DNA of 64,000 nucleotides from Halostagnicola sp. A56 (GTDB taxonomy: Archaea; Halobacteriota; Halobacteria; Halobacteriales; Natrialbaceae). The notes beneath the pieces were generated by a model. That model was not told the origin of the DNA, ran no database searches, and saw only the letters and a list, made by a program, of their open reading frames with translations. Each line of letters begins with the position of its first letter. The stretch's first letter is position 1. Both the position numbers and the translations under genes were made by a program. Below, one piece after another: positions 13,273-64,000 of this stretch. The DNA lies in contig NZ_JMIP02000017.1 in assembly GCF_000691505.1 (NCBI RefSeq), positions 62,001-126,000 of the forward strand, written 5' to 3'.

Positions 13273-13607
13273 ACCTATATATTTAACAAACCCTCATTAA
13301 AATATTACCCATTGTTCATGTGGTAATCCGGTAGGGAATGTGTTTACGAGAAAAACGATTGCTCTTCGAGATCGGAGAAAGTCAGATTTTCAGCGATTGT
13401 TTCAATTTTCGTGTCAGCTTGAGCTTTTGCATCGGATGATCGTGATCTCGAGCGAGAGGTTAGATCTCAACTCATCACCCTAGAGACGACATTAATCTAG
13501 AATAGAAGGACTAGAGATAGCGCCAATAACGACATAGTGATCGAGATAAGATCACTTAGCTCGAAATATGGGGTACTTTGAAGGTCCCACAATCGAATGC
13601 GTCTCGT
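13273..13607. other. AT-rich intergenic region
   Basis: 335 nt with no convincing ORF. It separates the divergent winged-helix gene and the DUF5805-like gene and probably holds both promoters. Confidence 0.5.
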
Positions 13608-30558: not shown

Positions 30559-31320
30559 TTATCGATCCGAACGCTCGTCCGATTCCTGCAGGTCGGGCCG
30601 CTCGGTCGCCCGTCGCAGCAATCCGAGAAACGTGTTGACTTCTCCTTCCGTCGGATCGGCTCTGCCGTACACGCGGCGGATCATCCGCATCGTCTTCTCG
30701 CGTTTCTCCTCGGGATGGTTTAGTTCGGCGAGCAGGTCGCCCCACTGATCGTAGAGTCGCTCGAGCAGCGGTTCCGGTGCGCGAACGCGCGTTTTGTCCG
30801 GGAGTTGCGTGTCGCCATCGGCGAGCGCGAGCGAGCGGAGTTCGTAGAGCGTGATCGTCGCCGCCTGTCCGAGGTTGAGCGCAGGGTACTCGGCGCTCGC
30901 GGGGATCGAACATATCTCGTCGATTCGGCTCAGCTCCTCGTTCGTGAGGCCGACGCGTTCGCGACCGAAGACGAGAACCGTGGGGGCGTCGACGGTGGGC
31001 AACCGTTCGGCGAGTTCGGCGGGCGTCGAGTACGGAAACCGAACGTGGTGTTCGTCGTCCTCGTTCGTGACGGCCGTACACCCGATCGTGTGGTAGTTCT
31101 CCACAAGATCGTCGAACGAGAGCTCAGTTGCGTTGGGCAAGATGTCGTCTCGAGCGTGTCCAGCGAACCCGTACGCTTCGCCGTCCGGATCGAGTTCCGG
31201 CGGATCGACCAGCAGTAAGTCCTCGAAACCGAAGTTCTTCATCGCTCGAGCGATGGTGCCCACGTTCCCCGGTGTCTCAGCGTCGACGACGGCGACGGCA
31301 GGCGGATCCCGCGTGTCCAT
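30559..31320 (-). CDS. SpoU/TrmH-family RNA 2'-O-methyltransferase (TrmJ-like)
   Basis: 253 aa from the ATG at 31320 (MDTRDPPAVAVVDAETPGNVG). SPOUT knot motifs are ETPGNVGTIARAMKNFG, LVFGRERVGLTNEEL and PALNLGQAATITLYEL. These bind SAM in the trefoil knot. The subgroup resembles TrmJ, which methylates position 32 of the tRNA anticodon loop, but another RNA is possible. The C-terminal helical extension (RVRAPEPLLERLYDQWGDLL) is common in this group. It is transcribed away from the origin-like region. Confidence 0.85.
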   Translation of the reverse strand: MDTRDPPAVAVVDAETPGNVGTIARAMKNFGFEDLLLVDPPELDPDGEAYGFAGHARDDILPNATELSFDDLVENYHTIGCTAVTNEDDEHHVRFPYSTPAELAERLPTVDAPTVLVFGRERVGLTNEELSRIDEICSIPASAEYPALNLGQAATITLYELRSLALADGDTQLPDKTRVRAPEPLLERLYDQWGDLLAELNHPEEKREKTMRMIRRVYGRADPTEGEVNTFLGLLRRATERPDLQESDERSDR

Positions 31321-31436
31321 GTACTCGGCTATTCGTGGACAGGGAAAAGAAGTCTGTTCGGAGCGAAGATCGAAGTGGGAATAATCGAAGTAGAGAGTTG
31401 CTAACATACATACTACTACTAACTGTTGTCAACTAC

Positions 31437-31464
31437 CTAGGCTAGTCTAGGTAAACTAGCCTAG
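31437..31464. repeat. Perfect 10-bp inverted repeat in the origin-like region
   Basis: Arms CTAGGCTAGT (31437-31446) and ACTAGCCTAG (31455-31464) with an 8-nt spacer. It is unusually rich in CTAG, a tetranucleotide that is generally rare in genomes. Confidence 0.85.
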
Positions 31465-31643
31465 TAAACAGCACTAGAGCGTGCGGTGTGCAATCCAGCG
31501 GAGCTGTGCAACGTATCGGAATGAGTTGATGGGAGATACTGTTCTACGGATGGAACTATTCTAGAGATATTGGTCCGTTTTGCCTTTGAGGCATCAATTT
31601 GTGAGCCGTTCTGTTCTGTGTGGCTGTTTTGTGTGACTACTTT

Positions 31644-31675
31644 GAGGGGGGACACACCTGCATCGCGTTTGTAAC
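31644..31675 (+). repeat. ORB-like repeat copy A
   Basis: G-rich block followed by ACACACC and the core TCGCGTTTGTAAC. It pairs with copy C in inverted orientation. Confidence 0.7.
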
Positions 31676-31700
31676 GGCGAATGTGTGTGGGGGTTCTGTT

Positions 31701-31730
31701 TTGGAACACACCTCTGTCGCGGATGTAAAT
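31701..31730 (+). repeat. ORB-like repeat copy B
   Basis: TTGGAACACACCTCTGTCGC followed by GGATGTAAAT. It has the same orientation and spacing of motifs as copy A. Confidence 0.65.
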
Positions 31731-31798
31731 ATGTCTATAGAATGAGGGTAAAGCGCCAGATTCGGGGGGTCTCTACTACCCCCACCCCCACATTTGGC

Positions 31799-31830
31799 GT
31801 TACAAACGCGACGGGGGTGTGTGTCCCCTC
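31799..31830 (-). repeat. ORB-like repeat copy C
   Basis: On the plus strand it reads GTTACAAACGCGACGGGGGT and then GTGTGTCCCCTC. Its reverse complement matches copy A over the core TCGCGTTTGTAAC, with the G-rich block. Confidence 0.7.
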
Positions 31831-32023
31831 GTTGCACAATCTCGAGTCCAGCTATCGCTCGAGTGGCTGTCTCACCTGCTCGAGCGTTGATTTTCCCGTT
31901 CATCGCTTTAGTTTGGGACCAGTTGGCATTGTCACGTTGTTACCACGGTGGTCAATCTCGAAGCTCTCTCGAATACTCACCTGTGTTCTCGCCCTTCCGT
32001 TCTCGCATCCATCCATCAACACA

Positions 32024-32054
32024 GTTACACGCGCGACACTGGTGTGGGGGTGTC
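32024..32054 (-). repeat. ORB-like repeat copy D
   Basis: On the plus strand it reads GTTACACGCGCGACACTGGT and then GTGGGGGTGTC. The reverse complement carries TGTCGCGCGTGTAAC. Confidence 0.65.
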
Positions 32055-32167
32055 GATGGAGACAACCTACGGCACGACACGGAGAGACATAGAAACGCGA
32101 TAGAAGCAACTCTCCCGAGATGGCCTAATTATCTACATTTGGGACCTAACGAAGGGTTGCATATAAC

Positions 32168-32196
32168 ATTTACACACGCGAGGCAACCCTATGGGT
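32168..32196 (-). repeat. ORB-like repeat copy E (degenerate) with overlapping 8-bp inverted repeat
   Basis: Plus strand ATTTACACACGCGAGGC; the reverse complement has TCGCGTGTGTAAAT. Its GCAACCCT (32183-32190) also pairs perfectly with AGGGTTGC at 32153-32160. Confidence 0.5.
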
Positions 32197-32232
32197 TTAT
32201 CTTATCCCAATTAGTATTCCCGCAGTATTGGA

Positions 32233-33495
32233 ATGTCCTCCAACGATGACCGGGACCCGCTCTTTCGCTACGACGATCCGATCTTCGCCGACGAGCGTTT
32301 GCTTGAGATCACGCACCTTCCGGGACCTGATCGGATCGTCGGACGAGACGAGCAGATGCAGCGGGTCGCCGACGCACTCAATCCGGCGGTGTTCGGGAGC
32401 GAGCCAAACCACCTGTTTATCTTCGGGAAGACGGGTACCGGGAAATCGCTCATCTCGCGATCCGTCACCCAGCGAGTGATTACCGAGGCCGAACGCGACG
32501 GCGTCACGGTCAAGTACGCCTTCATCGACTGTGGCGAGCAAAACACCGAAGCGTCGGTCGTCAAAACGATCGCCCAGATCATCAACGAGCCCGATAACAG
32601 CGGTATCACGGTTCCAGACCGCGGGCTCGGAACCGGGGACTACTACAAGCGACTCTGGCAGACGATCGATCACTGTACCGACGTAACGATCGTTATCCTC
32701 GACGAAATCGATATGCTTGAGGACGACGAGATCCTCCGAAAGCTCTCGCGGGCCGGCGAAAACCGACGAATTTCGGACGCGGCGATCGGGATTGTCGGCA
32801 TCTCGAACAAGATCGATTTCCCCGATCACCTCTCCGAGCGGGTCAAGTCCAGTCTCTCGCGAGACGAACTCGTCTTTTCGCCCTACGATGCGAACCAACT
32901 GATTGAGATCCTCGAGAAACGTCAGGACGCCTTCCACGACAGCGTGCTCGAGGACGACGTGATTCCGCTGACCTCCGCGCTCGCGGCCCAGGAACACGGC
33001 GACGCGCGAAAGGCGATCGACATTCTTCGAAACGCGGGTCGGCTCGCGAAGAAACAAAACGACGCGCGGGTCACCGCCGAAAACGTCCGCGAGGCGAAAG
33101 AGAAGACCGAAGCCGACCGGTTCAACGAACTGATCGAAGGGTCACCCCAGCAGGCGAAAGCGATCCTGTACGCGCTGACGGTATTGACCCAGAACAGTTC
33201 CCAGAAGGAGTTCCCGACGAAGATAATCTACAACCAGTACAAGGAACTGGCGCGACGCCTCGATTTCGACATCCTCTCGGAACGACGCGTCCAGGAAATC
33301 CTGCAGGAACAGAACTTCCTCAACGTGATCCAGTCCGAGCGAACCGGCCGCGGCCGCGGTCGCGGCGCGCACGCGAAACACCGACTGCTCGAGAATCCGT
33401 CGATCGTCGAGAAGGTGCTCCTGCGAGATTCCCGGCTTGCACTGCTCGACGAAAACGCGGATACCGAGACACAGGAGACGCCCTCCGGGAGGTAA
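32233..33495 (+). CDS. orc1: Orc1/Cdc6 family replication initiator
   Basis: 420 aa AAA+ ATPase. Walker A is GKTGTGKS (residues 65-72), Walker B VILDEIDML, and sensor regions follow. The C terminus holds a winged helix (KIIYNQYKELARRLDFDILSERRVQEILQEQ) that binds ORB repeats. It melts the origin and recruits the MCM helicase. The ATG at 32233 is the first in frame. It lies right beside a set of inverted repeats, so it most likely serves the local origin. The Arg/Gly-rich stretch near residue 375 is ordinary for the family. Confidence 0.94.
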   Translation: MSSNDDRDPLFRYDDPIFADERLLEITHLPGPDRIVGRDEQMQRVADALNPAVFGSEPNHLFIFGKTGTGKSLISRSVTQRVITEAERDGVTVKYAFIDCGEQNTEASVVKTIAQIINEPDNSGITVPDRGLGTGDYYKRLWQTIDHCTDVTIVILDEIDMLEDDEILRKLSRAGENRRISDAAIGIVGISNKIDFPDHLSERVKSSLSRDELVFSPYDANQLIEILEKRQDAFHDSVLEDDVIPLTSALAAQEHGDARKAIDILRNAGRLAKKQNDARVTAENVREAKEKTEADRFNELIEGSPQQAKAILYALTVLTQNSSQKEFPTKIIYNQYKELARRLDFDILSERRVQEILQEQNFLNVIQSERTGRGRGRGAHAKHRLLENPSIVEKVLLRDSRLALLDENADTETQETPSGR

Positions 33496-35721: not shown

Positions 35722-36885
35722 TCAAAAGAGCGCGTCGATCTCTCCGCCGGTATCCATCAGCGACGAGAACTGTTCCTGGCTCTGTGCCTGGACGTCCGCG
35801 GTACGATTTTTCGCGTCGATCGCGACCTGCTGGAGCGTCTCGATCCGCGGCACCGACGTCACGCCGGTGAGCAATACGATCGAGCCGACCTCGCGTTCGC
35901 CGACGAGCGGGTAATCGCCGCCGCGGATTTCCATGCTACCGGTCTCCTCCTCGAGCCACGTGCGTCCGCGTTCGATTCCCTTTCGATTGAGGTGGGCGGG
36001 TGGACCGGTCGCGACCGCGAGTCCGCGTTCGGCACTCGCGATATCACAGGGGAGCGTCAGGCGGCCGAGTGCTGCCTTGCGAATCAGACTCGTCATCCGG
36101 CTCGTCGCCGACAGTTCGTCGGGCGAATCCCCATCCCGGAACCTGGAGATGAGCCCGTCGTTTGCGTTCTCGACGGTCTCTCGAGCGTAGCCGACGGTCG
36201 AGACGCCGCCGCCAGACAGCGTGTTGATGATCTCCGAGGAGTCGACCACGCTCTCGGCAACGTGGTCGCCCTCCTCTACCTCTCCTGCGGCGAAGAGCAG
36301 TCCGAACCGCTCTGCGATTTCGCGGTTTATCTCTCCGTAGCCGGTGCGAACCGATTCGCCGGTCTGTCGCCAGGCGTCGTTGTCGAAGACGAGCAAGTTG
36401 TCGACCTCGCGAACGAACGTCTGGAACGACCGGGCGGCATTGAGCGTGTAGATCCCGCCCTCGTCGGTCGCCGGGAGGATCCCCAGTCCGTACACGGGTT
36501 CGGAGTAAATCCGTTTGAGGTGCTTCGCGAGGACAGGCGCACCGCCCGAACCGGTGCCGCCGCCCATCCCCGCGACGATCAGAAACGCGTCGATTTCGTG
36601 AACCGGAACTCGGTCGACGGCGCCCTGTATCTCGTCGATGTCCTCTTCGGTGACCGTCGCTCCGAGTTCGTTGTCCGCGCCGACGCCGTGTCCTTTGACC
36701 CGCGTCTGCCCGATGAGGACTCGATGCTCCGTCGGAATCTCCTCGAGTCCGTGTAGGTCCGCGGTCGCGGAGTTGACTGCGATCGCCGATTCGACGAAGT
36801 TCCCGTCGATCGTCCGCTCGTACGACAGGAACTCGTCGACAACTTTCCCGCCTGCCTGTCCGAAGCCGATGAGTGCGAGTTTCAT
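35722..36885 (-). CDS. cetZ: CetZ tubulin-like cytoskeletal GTPase
   Basis: 387 aa. N-terminal MKLALIGFGQAGGKVVDEFL and the tubulin/FtsZ GTP signature GMGGGTGSGG place it in the superfamily. The absence of FtsZ-specific sequence and the haloarchaeal style (GYGEINREIAERFG) fit CetZ. It polymerises with GTP and controls cell shape and motility. The start at 36885 follows the family. It is divergent from the HalOD1 gene across 325 nt of regulatory DNA. Confidence 0.9.
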   Translation of the reverse strand: MKLALIGFGQAGGKVVDEFLSYERTIDGNFVESAIAVNSATADLHGLEEIPTEHRVLIGQTRVKGHGVGADNELGATVTEEDIDEIQGAVDRVPVHEIDAFLIVAGMGGGTGSGGAPVLAKHLKRIYSEPVYGLGILPATDEGGIYTLNAARSFQTFVREVDNLLVFDNDAWRQTGESVRTGYGEINREIAERFGLLFAAGEVEEGDHVAESVVDSSEIINTLSGGGVSTVGYARETVENANDGLISRFRDGDSPDELSATSRMTSLIRKAALGRLTLPCDIASAERGLAVATGPPAHLNRKGIERGRTWLEEETGSMEIRGGDYPLVGEREVGSIVLLTGVTSVPRIETLQQVAIDAKNRTADVQAQSQEQFSSLMDTGGEIDALF

Positions 36886-53955: not shown

Positions 53956-54738
53956 TCACTCGGCGAGTTCAGGCCGGGAGCCAACGACGTTGACGACGGC
54001 GCCGAACAGGATGAGGATCCCGGCGAAGTACAGCCAGGTGACGAACAGCAAGATCGCACCGACGGCGCCGTAGGCCTCGTACTGGCCGGCGTTGGCCGCG
54101 TAGATCTGAAAGCCCGCCTGGAGGACCGTCCAGCCGACCGCGGCGAAGACGGCTCCCGGGATCGCCTCTCGAGGCTCGAGCGAGATCGGCGGCAGAACGT
54201 AGTACATCGGGTAGAAGACGGCGAAGAGCCCGACCACGAGAAGCGGCCAGCTCAGGAGGCCGGCGATCGGAACCGTCTCCGAGAGCAAGCCGATAACCGC
54301 GGCCGTCACGATCATCAGGCCGAGCCCGCCGGCCCCCGCGAGAATGACGACCAGTCCGTCCGTGATCTGCTCGAGCAGCGAGTTCTCGGCGTCGGTGCCG
54401 TAGATCCGGTCGAACGCGAGGCTGAGTCCCCGGAACACCTTCAGGCCACCCCAGGCGGCGACCAGGAGCGCGACGATGGTCGCTTCGGCGCGGCCGGACT
54501 CCGTCGTCAACGCGTCTGTAACGAGGGTTTCACCGGCTTCGGGGAGGAAATCGCCGGCGACTCTGATCAGCTGTTCGGCGACGTCCTCGCCGCCGAGCAG
54601 CGAGCCGACGACGATCGCCAGCAGTATCAGCGGGATCACCGACACGAACGCGTAGTAGGCGAACCCCGCGGCGAGATACGTCAGGTCGCGGTCGCTGGCT
54701 GTGGCGTAGATCTCGAGGATCGTTTCTTTCGGATTCAT
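53956..54738 (-). CDS. YihY/BrkB-family membrane protein
   Basis: 260 aa with about six transmembrane segments. The family pattern DLTYLAAGFAYYAFVSVIPLILLA near the N terminus and the C-terminal YGAVGAILLFVTWLYFAGILILFGAVVN are clear. Its biochemical role is not established; the family was once mis-called ribonuclease BN. The ATG at 54738 is used because the upstream frame is made of the 27-bp repeats. Confidence 0.88.
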   Translation of the reverse strand: MNPKETILEIYATASDRDLTYLAAGFAYYAFVSVIPLILLAIVVGSLLGGEDVAEQLIRVAGDFLPEAGETLVTDALTTESGRAEATIVALLVAAWGGLKVFRGLSLAFDRIYGTDAENSLLEQITDGLVVILAGAGGLGLMIVTAAVIGLLSETVPIAGLLSWPLLVVGLFAVFYPMYYVLPPISLEPREAIPGAVFAAVGWTVLQAGFQIYAANAGQYEAYGAVGAILLFVTWLYFAGILILFGAVVNVVGSRPELAE

Positions 54739-63011: not shown

Positions 63012-64000
63012 TCACTCGAGCCGATCCAACACGGCCTCTTTCTCGTAGGCGAGCGTCAGCGACCGCGAGCGACCGCGGCCGTCGATTTCGGCGTAGTCGG
63101 CCTCGATCAGGCCGAGCTGGTCGAGTTTGTTGACGATTTCGGAGTAGCGCGTGTAGCCGAGGTCGGTCTCCTCGCGGAAGGCGTCGTAGACGGCGCCGGC
63201 CTGTTCGCCGTCGTTGGTCGCGATGACCTCGAGCAGGGCGCGTTCCGTGTCGCTGAGTCCCGAGAGGCTCTGCGAGAGGCTCACGTATTTCGACTTTTCG
63301 TAGGCGGTTTCGACGTCTTCGCGCTCGACGACGCGGCTGGCGCGCATTTCTGCGGTGAGTCCCGCCCGCCGAAGCAGGTCGATCCCGACCCGGAGGTCGC
63401 CGCTTTCTGCCGTTAGCTCGGCGACGTACTCGAGCGTGTCTCGGGAGATGACTCCGTCGTTGAACCCCTTTCTAACGCGCTCGTCGAGGATGTCGACGAT
63501 TTCGGGCTGGTCGTACACCGGGAAGTAGACGTCTTCGGGGCGGAAGACGCTCTGGACCCGCGAGTCCAGTTCGTCGATCACCTCGAGGGTCGGATCGGAG
63601 GAGACCACGACGACGCCGATCTTCGCGCCGGGGTACTCCTCGTGAGCGCGAAGCAACGAGTAGAGCGTGTCGGAGGCCTCGTTCTCGTAAAAGAGGTAGT
63701 TCACGTCGTCGAGCGCGACGACCAGCACGCGGTCTTGCTCGACGAGTTTCTCGGCGATCTGGCCGAACAGCTTCTTGAAGGAGATGCCCGACGAGGGCGG
63801 TTCGTAGTCGAAGGTTCCCTCGAACAGCCGCGAAAACACCGAGTACCGCGTCGAGTTGACCTGGCAGTTGACCCGAATCGTTCGAATGTCGCCAGTCTGT
63901 GCACCGACCTCGTCGAACAGCTTTTGAATCGAAGTGGTCTTGCCCGTTCCGGGCGGTCCGCGGACCATCACGTTCAGCGGGCGCGACCCGCGAACCGCGG
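63012..64000 (-). CDS. Orc1/Cdc6-family ATPase, cut by the window edge
   Basis: At least 329 codons, with the 5' end beyond base 64000 and the stop at 63012. Walker A is GPPGTGKT, Walker B VALDDVNYLF, and a C-terminal winged helix includes FREETDLGYTRYSEIVNKLDQLG. The N-terminal ISS/origin-contact segment lies outside the window. It is a divergent initiator paralogue, unlike the Orc1 at 32233, and lacks an obvious adjacent repeat cluster in the window. Confidence 0.88.
   Translation of the reverse strand, partial: AVRGSRPLNVMVRGPPGTGKTTSIQKLFDEVGAQTGDIRTIRVNCQVNSTRYSVFSRLFEGTFDYEPPSSGISFKKLFGQIAEKLVEQDRVLVVALDDVNYLFYENEASDTLYSLLRAHEEYPGAKIGVVVVSSDPTLEVIDELDSRVQSVFRPEDVYFPVYDQPEIVDILDERVRKGFNDGVISRDTLEYVAELTAESGDLRVGIDLLRRAGLTAEMRASRVVEREDVETAYEKSKYVSLSQSLSGLSDTERALLEVIATNDGEQAGAVYDAFREETDLGYTRYSEIVNKLDQLGLIEADYAEIDGRGRSRSLTLAYEKEAVLDRLE

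Follow-up and report, generated by a model that had tools for sequence, protein, structure and literature searches.

A probable second replication origin of the Natrialbaceae main chromosome, in which one type of box goes with one Orc1/Cdc6 clade and a CTAG array lies alongside

In the haloarchaeal origin families described in the main text of Wu et al. 2012 (PMC3528665), an intergenic region adjacent to orc/cdc6 carries inverted boxes with G-strings, and the type of box is linked to the family of the Orc protein; the locus reported here is alike in all of these respects. The Orc of one such family, oriC1, is conserved in all haloarchaea with at least 80% identity within the family, and Table 1 of the same paper includes three Natrialbaceae genomes. 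That CTAG clusters occur at haloarchaeal origins is likewise already published: Blow et al. 2016 (PMC4752239) reported them upstream of haloarchaeal orc genes, together with an orphan methyltransferase, the motif being printed as CATG in the text and as CTAG in a figure legend. As far as the accessible parts of the later papers go, the association between cluster and methyltransferase has been repeated (PMC10609329), a rise in CTAG was found at only one origin of Haloferax volcanii and its role was doubted (PMC5867850), the role of the motif has been called open (PMC6471742), and m4C modification of CTAG has been reported for Natrinema pallidum NMX15-1 (PMC12160562).

The window analysed here is a stretch of 64,000 nucleotides corresponding to positions 62001-126000 of contig C9 in the assembly of Halostagnicola sp. 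A56 (3.18 Mb in 26 contigs, 83.7% complete), and its Orc is 96% identical to the Orc of Halostagnicola sp. A-GB9-2 (L019). Based on the design of the locus, we propose, with a probability of roughly 0.8, that here the main chromosome of Natrialbaceae has a second, orc1/cdc6-linked origin. The locus has three of the features by which haloarchaeal orc/cdc6-adjacent origins are recognized, namely adjacency to orc, inverted and repeated origin recognition boxes (ORBs), and G-string ends (on ORB1-ORB4). Its elements, in window coordinates, are as follows.

30559-31321, minus strand: trmJ-like tRNA/rRNA 2'-O-methyltransferase gene (SpoU family), divergent left neighbour; PF00588 E 6e-25, TIGR00050
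31375-31468, no strand: least stable, AT-rich stretch in the stability profile, candidate DNA-unwinding element
31437-31477, no strand: CTAG array, six CTAG sites in 41 bp, including an inverted repeat; from the sequence and the recurrence of the cluster
31652-31674, minus strand: ORB1, core plus G-string pointing left; matrix score 34.4, exact core
31682-31694, plus strand: G-rich arm just inside ORB1, pairing with 31778-31790 (13-nt inverted repeat, 85%)
31706-31728, minus strand: ORB2; matrix score 36.0, exact core
31778-31790, plus strand: C-rich arm just inside ORB3, partner of 31682-31694 in the inverted repeat
31800-31822, plus strand: ORB3, inverted with respect to ORB1 and ORB2; matrix score 40.3
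32025-32047, plus strand: ORB4; matrix score 21.5, exact core
32170-32181, plus strand: ORB5, lacking the G-string, located 63 nt upstream of the orc ATG and possibly an operator; exact core, matrix score -4.9
32196-32203, plus strand: TATA-box-like element of orc (TTTATCTT; family consensus CTTTATTT), from an alignment of 49 promoters
32233-33495, plus strand: orc1/cdc6 initiator gene, 420 aa; TIGR02928 E 2.7e-121, 404.9 bits, with Cdc6 lid and C-terminal winged helix

The Walker A, Walker B and sensor-1 motifs of the Orc1/Cdc6 protein are all intact, its closest solved structures are 2v1u and 2qby_A, and the intergenic region 31322-32232 directly abuts the start of its gene at 32233, which agrees with the first-pass annotation of this DNA in placing an orc1/cdc6 gene beside the repeats. 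About 840 nt had been called non-coding in that annotation; the stretch between trmJ and orc is indeed non-coding, and its length becomes 911 nt (31322-32232) if trmJ begins at the ATG at 31321, the start chosen here, the longest trmJ frame beginning at 31407. For comparison, a search of genome contigs with the Orc returned 57 loci, 48 of them from Natrialbaceae, and these 48 together with the window make up the 49 rows referred to below. By tblastn, trmJ was found upstream of orc, at a distance of up to 3.2 kb, in 44/49 rows; the misses were L055 and L060-L063, and in L055 the gene was found by motif. Also within the window, a CetZ-type tubulin-like gene (35722-36885) follows orc at a distance of about 2.2 kb, and a CetZ-type gene was matched near the origin in 25/49 rows including the window (a hand count over loci of limited span). 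A second, distant orc1/cdc6-like gene with 29% identity occupies 63060-64000 on the minus strand and is partial at the window end (C9:125060-126133).

Exact cores of the form TCGCG-N2-TGTAA (TTACAnnCGCGA) are located at 31663-31674 (+), 31717-31728 (+), 31800-31811 (-), 32025-32036 (-) and 32170-32181 (-). Beyond these five the 64-kb window has no exact match; shuffling gave a mean of 0.12 and a maximum of 2 for the window (100 shuffles) and a maximum of 1 for the intergenic region (2,000 dinucleotide shuffles), and the whole 3.18-Mb assembly holds nine, five of them at this locus. All five repeats recognized at first pass, two in plus and three in minus orientation, are thus exact; of the positions given for them, 31644 and 31701 are the starts of longer repeats and the other three fall within 2 nt of the cores. 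Alignment of 224 sites from 48 Natrialbaceae loci gave the full box as TTACAnnCGCGAnGGGGGTGTGT, a core followed by a G-string, and as the sites were chosen by their core, the informative columns are those outside it. The matrix used for scoring was built on 180 sites from the 49 rows, with the last box of each row excluded and ORB1-ORB4 of the window included. A G-rich end is present on ORB1-ORB4 and absent from ORB5, which is why the latter scores as low as -4.9 despite its exact core.

The spacing of the inverted boxes is nearly fixed: the gap from ORB1 to ORB3 measures 116-127 nt in 49/49 rows, the window included, and several columns of the G-rich arm are at least 70% conserved in the alignment of the 49 rows. 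Only one exact core is present on the ORB1/ORB2 side in 16/49 rows. Downstream of orc there is no exact core in the window, the nearest core with one mismatch lying at 54510, and the window therefore shows nothing like the ORB-rich region downstream of cdc6 that characterizes negative control of the Haloarcula oriC2 type. As the known layout of haloarchaeal origins, the first-pass annotation gave inverted ORBs around an AT-rich zone. The inverted ORBs are there, whereas the least stable DNA lies outside the boxes, to the left of ORB1, in 46/49 rows. In the window, the listed least stable 60-nt segments of the intergenic region begin at 31375-31408, the best of them being in the top 0.12% of the 64 kb. 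The array has a median AT content of 62%, the interval between the inverted boxes one of 44% and the locus one of 37%. With only 44% AT in that interval, the ORBs do not clearly flank an AT-rich element in the textbook manner, keeping in mind that in the window itself a 40-nt stretch of 62% AT begins at 31722, between the boxes. A further box to the left of the CTAG array, which would bring the array within an inverted pair, was rejected for this type of box: in scans of up to 600 nt in the 49 rows the best matrix score was -3.7, whereas true sites scored at least 10.5 and controls at most -13.4, a value exceeded in seven rows.

Contrary to the concern, raised along with the first-pass annotation, that the repeats might not be conserved in close relatives, at least four exact cores were found in 48/48 related Natrialbaceae loci, and at least three exact upstream cores in 55/57 loci overall. 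Both exceptions are from Halomarina, L070 with no core and L071 with one core in only 252 nt of covered upstream DNA. A maximum-likelihood tree of Orc proteins was calculated from 72 chosen rows, 65 of them different, which comprised 26 of the 57 loci, two paralogues from the same assembly, 30 other loci, six oriC1 and seven plasmid rows, and the window. All 33 rows with at least two cores at their locus (33/33) fall in one clade of 35 rows with support of 100/100, the placement of long-branch rows in this tree being unsure. The remaining two rows of the clade are again Halomarina L070, with an altered box, and L071, with its short upstream stretch and single core. The six oriC1-type proteins form a separate group, also with support of 100/100, and no core is present at 36 of the 37 listed paralogue loci, the exception being L014 with one. 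Judged by these sequences, the box type TTACAnnCGCGAnGGGGGTGTGT goes with one Orc clade, and the earlier suggestion that the origin has an ORB type of its own is borne out. In Halomarina rubra (L070, 4184-4920) all nine box copies share the same one-letter change of the core, TTACAnnGGCG, eight of them ending in A and one in G. The Halomarina Orc lies inside the box-linked clade on a long branch, and it differs at 11 residues that are invariant in the other 64 family proteins, one of the 11 being in the winged-helix region (residue 299 on). Halomarina and the rest of the family form a natural initiator/box pair in which box recognition by an archaeal initiator may be mapped.

In 6/6 named complete-chromosome genomes searched, the main chromosome carries the locus, and the module is found on plasmids as well. 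A tblastn search of plasmid records with the Orc (E 1e-50) gave 278 records, nine of which had a best place above 60% identity, and seven of these nine were read. On the 48-kb Haloprofundus plasmid NZ_CP083665.1, whose incomplete gene table lists 40 genes, the only annotated initiator is a copy of this orc, accompanied by ParA, and two exact cores plus four with one mismatch lie upstream of it. This plasmid is natural evidence that an orc-box module can carry a replicon. The record CP031304.1 (987 kb) of Natrinema thermotolerans, which has four matching places, contains a syntenic trmJ-origin-orc-folP block; this record (L206, strain A29) is labelled a plasmid and is either part of a split chromosome or a mislabelled piece.

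The box nearest to the gene stands apart from the others. The last core lies at -62 to -77 relative to the orc start in 48/48 relatives and is followed, 14-15 nt on, by a TTTAT TATA-like element in 49/49 rows, and the plasmid copies of Haloferax larsenii and Haladaptatus share this layout. A gene-nearest box without G-string beside a TATA-like element suggests autoregulation of orc; since ORB5 both lacks the G-string and sits so closely upstream of that element, initiator bound to it would probably repress its own gene. In PMC3936714, the part available mentions autoregulation only for bacterial DnaA (introduction and reference list). One could go further and take all the boxes for regulatory or titration sites through which Orc controls its own gene and the neighbours, so that the locus would not be an origin at all. 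Regulators of transcription do exist in the Orc family, such as Orc1-2 (PMC9738581), and ORB5 abuts the orc promoter in every one of the 49 rows; however, ORB1-ORB4 are about 190 nt or more away from either gene start, are inverted and spaced, and bear G-strings, and the module provides the only annotated initiator of the 48-kb Haloprofundus plasmid, so that we consider a purely regulatory role highly improbable.

If the locus is a chromosomal origin, it is not oriC1. That identity is ruled out: the oriC1 Orc is a different and longer protein, with canonical boxes. In the six named complete genomes, where oriC1 and the window-type origin both lie on the main chromosome, a distinct oriC1-type Orc, 497-622 aa in length, shares 32.8-41.8% identity with the window Orc, far from the level of at least 80% seen within the oriC1 family. 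Canonical GAAAC-type ORBs are not of the window type, and TCCAnnTGAAACGAAGGGG-type (GAAACG) boxes, or shorter matches to them, were found near a CTAG array in 8/9 Natrialbaceae oriC1 loci, on both sides of it in seven; at L193 no box was matched with the pattern used. The array itself is present in 9/9 Natrialbaceae oriC1 loci examined (L193, L199-L201, L121-L124, L126), coinciding with or adjoining the least stable DNA in six of the nine, and it is absent from the single oriC1 locus examined outside the family (1/1, Halorussus). oriC1 is therefore like the window origin in being adjacent to orc and in having inverted boxes with a G-string and a CTAG array, but its array is placed between the boxes in 7/9 loci, whereas that of the window-type origin is outside them. 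At oriC1 the CTAG sites, often CTAGTAA, follow a spacing of 31-10-21/22 nt, near whole helical turns, in 9/9 Natrialbaceae loci, and this spacing is kept while much of the intervening sequence varies. GC and TA skew of the Natrinema gelatinilyticum orthologue showed no switch and neither did oriC1, with 400 kb considered for each, so skew has no power in this case. In the A56 assembly the oriC1-type orc is split into C9:182584-183597 (L113) and C18:120786-121322 (L130), which share an exact 39-nt stretch, and the C9 piece is about 87 kb from the window orc, as opposed to 1.31 Mb in two assemblies of the same genus (G008, G009). The split is probably an assembly chimera and possibly a rearrangement; a broken oriC1 in A56 is less likely than a chimera, given the 39-nt overlap and the occurrence of both parts together in 4/4 same-genus assemblies.

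The perfect CTAG-rich 10-bp palindrome seen at first pass at 31437-31464 is confirmed (arms 31437-31446 and 31455-31464, also scored as 13-nt arms at 92%) and belongs to the larger CTAG array. In four other Halostagnicola loci (L019, L196-L198) the sequence of the palindrome differs and a cluster of CTAG tetramers is present each time. The stretch 31322-31643 contains seven CTAG sites against a shuffle mean of 2.2, as many being reached in 3/2,000 shuffles; this excess over shuffles of the same AT-rich stretch is modest, and the strength of the observation lies in its recurrence across loci. Upstream of orc, 45/49 Natrialbaceae rows have a cluster of at least three CTAG sites, and no such cluster occurs elsewhere in these loci; the rows without an array are L040, L056, L057 and L060, with two CTAGs at that place in L056 and L057. 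Across 56 loci, CTAG occurs at 15.5/kb in the 300 nt to the left of ORB1 and at 0.30/kb outside, a 51-fold difference, and the next of the 16 palindromic tetramers is TATA at 5.8-fold. Two clusters of at least three CTAGs occur in 380 kb of contig C9, the larger being the window array; the other, a cluster of three, falls in a low-GC stretch at window 13480-13514. In 800 kb of N. gelatinilyticum there are four clusters, the two largest being at the orthologue of this origin and at oriC1, and among the 30 paralogue loci listed four have a cluster of three CTAGs. The array lies left of ORB1 in 3/3 Natrialbaceae plasmid copies read; in 7/7 testable loci outside Natrialbaceae, the 300 nt on that side contain no array. 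Where an array occurs at most 900 nt from ORB1, it lies in the least stable DNA or no farther than 60 nt from it in 42/44 rows. CTAG is half AT and so does not create an AT bias, and TA steps lower the computed stability. Helical phasing of the array was not apparent at this origin, the vector strengths being 0.07-0.08 at periods of 10, 10.5 and 11 with no clear period.

Whether the array takes part in origin function is a separate matter, as it might belong to the promoter region of trmJ or be AT-rich DNA in which an otherwise counter-selected tetramer is tolerated. Its distance to ORB1 is loose (111-894 nt, IQR 152-235) and no tighter than that to trmJ (IQR 318-385) in the 37/49 rows measurable for both. 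L027, L049 and L051 keep the usual distance between array and trmJ with ORB1 about 400-890 nt away, and Natribaculum (L060) has four exact cores without an array. In L061-L063, however, trmJ is not adjacent and the array is still left of ORB1, CTAG there amounts to 1.47 times its Markov expectation against 0.39 outside, and oriC1 has an array too, located between the inverted boxes in the 7/9 loci with boxes found on both sides. An array without any part in the origin is, on balance of this evidence, possible and rather doubtful.

A candidate orphan-type methyltransferase (PF01555, 365 aa) is encoded at C9:268763-269857, and one homologue is present in each of the 23/23 genomes tested, array-less ones among them. 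Judged by how widely it is spread and by its length and SPPY motif, both features described for HVO_0794, the enzyme is putatively specific for CTAG. Having the enzyme is thus no predictor of an array in this sample, and loss of the methyltransferase as the reason for missing arrays is ruled out.

For the proposed second origin, these elements can be arranged into a putative sequence of events. The product of the adjacent orc gene would bind the four G-string boxes ORB1-ORB4, and ORB1/ORB2 set against ORB3 at a near-fixed distance would form an initiator complex, perhaps aided by the G-rich inverted repeat next to their inner sides. The DNA would most likely open to the left of ORB1, in the AT-rich stretch of lowest stability that holds the CTAG array. 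The CTAG sites are probably m4C-methylated by the conserved orphan-type methyltransferase, and their methylation state after replication may delay re-firing. In its complete form, this would amount to a one-sided, methylation-gated origin, with an unwinding element outside the boxes that is built of CTAG m4C sites, a block of re-opening by hemimethylation, and ORB5 as a second, autoregulatory loop. Such a scheme follows the logic of bacterial Dam/SeqA, and we put it forward as a speculative model that is, taken whole, unlikely.

The first-pass annotation spoke of an active or dormant origin, and in that wording it finds support in the conserved boxes and the single Orc clade, activity itself being putative. 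The orthologous locus of Natrinema sp. J7 bears on the choice between the two. It is the region oriC9/ARS-5/pFJ5 of PMC5350488, as both of its primers, PARS-5-fwd and PARS-5-rev, have perfect matches in Natrinema gari L022, and the ARS-5 amplicon mapped on L022 spans orc, boxes and array. The table in that paper gives one ORB element for oriC9, compared with four exact cores counted in L022, and in the part of the paper available no mention was found of the box type, the orc-proximal box or the array. Transformation with pFJ5, the single published assay of an orthologue that was found, yielded <10 cfu/ug, as compared with ~10^3 for three other J7 regions. This low yield, along with the documented existence of haloarchaeal dormant origins with intact inverted boxes (PMC4595724), would fit a backup origin that is anatomically complete, replicates if the others are lost and rarely fires normally, like Haloferax mediterranei oriC4-cdc6H. 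Yet incompatibility with the resident copy can also weaken transformation, as reported for Haloarcula hispanica oriC2 (PMC3936714), and the near-fixed geometry, family-wide retention and maintained CTAG array suggest continuing selection. Dormancy is in our view a real possibility, although not the favoured one.

Cumulatively, our findings define an origin family precisely, by its box, its geometry and its initiator clade, as one that is kept in 48 Natrialbaceae loci and common to plasmids. The box cluster, the orc-proximal box and the CTAG array are separable, which makes the role of CTAG methylation addressable at one defined locus. The origin family is probably among the predictions of Wu et al. 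2012. From the text of PMC3528665 it could be matched to neither the oriC1, the oriCa nor the oriCb family, the box lists being in the supplement and outside this comparison, and since those predictions include Natrialbaceae we claim no first sighting. In the literature, judged mostly by title and with those supplementary lists set aside, no earlier description of the box type and the orc-proximal box was found.

Among the described systems, oriC1 of Haloarcula hispanica (PMC3936714, in the part available) resembles the window in its outward-pointing G-strings and in having a G-rich inverted repeat, an enhancer in that origin, on the inner side of the inverted boxes; it differs in that its AT-rich region lies between two boxes, whereas the least stable DNA of the window lies outside them. 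The system of Blow et al. (PMC4752239), as far as its accessible text goes, is like the window in having a CTAG cluster upstream of orc and a homologous orphan-type methyltransferase in the genome. In that work clusters go with the methyltransferase, whereas here a homologue of the enzyme is present even without an array, and here the array is in addition placed relative to the boxes.
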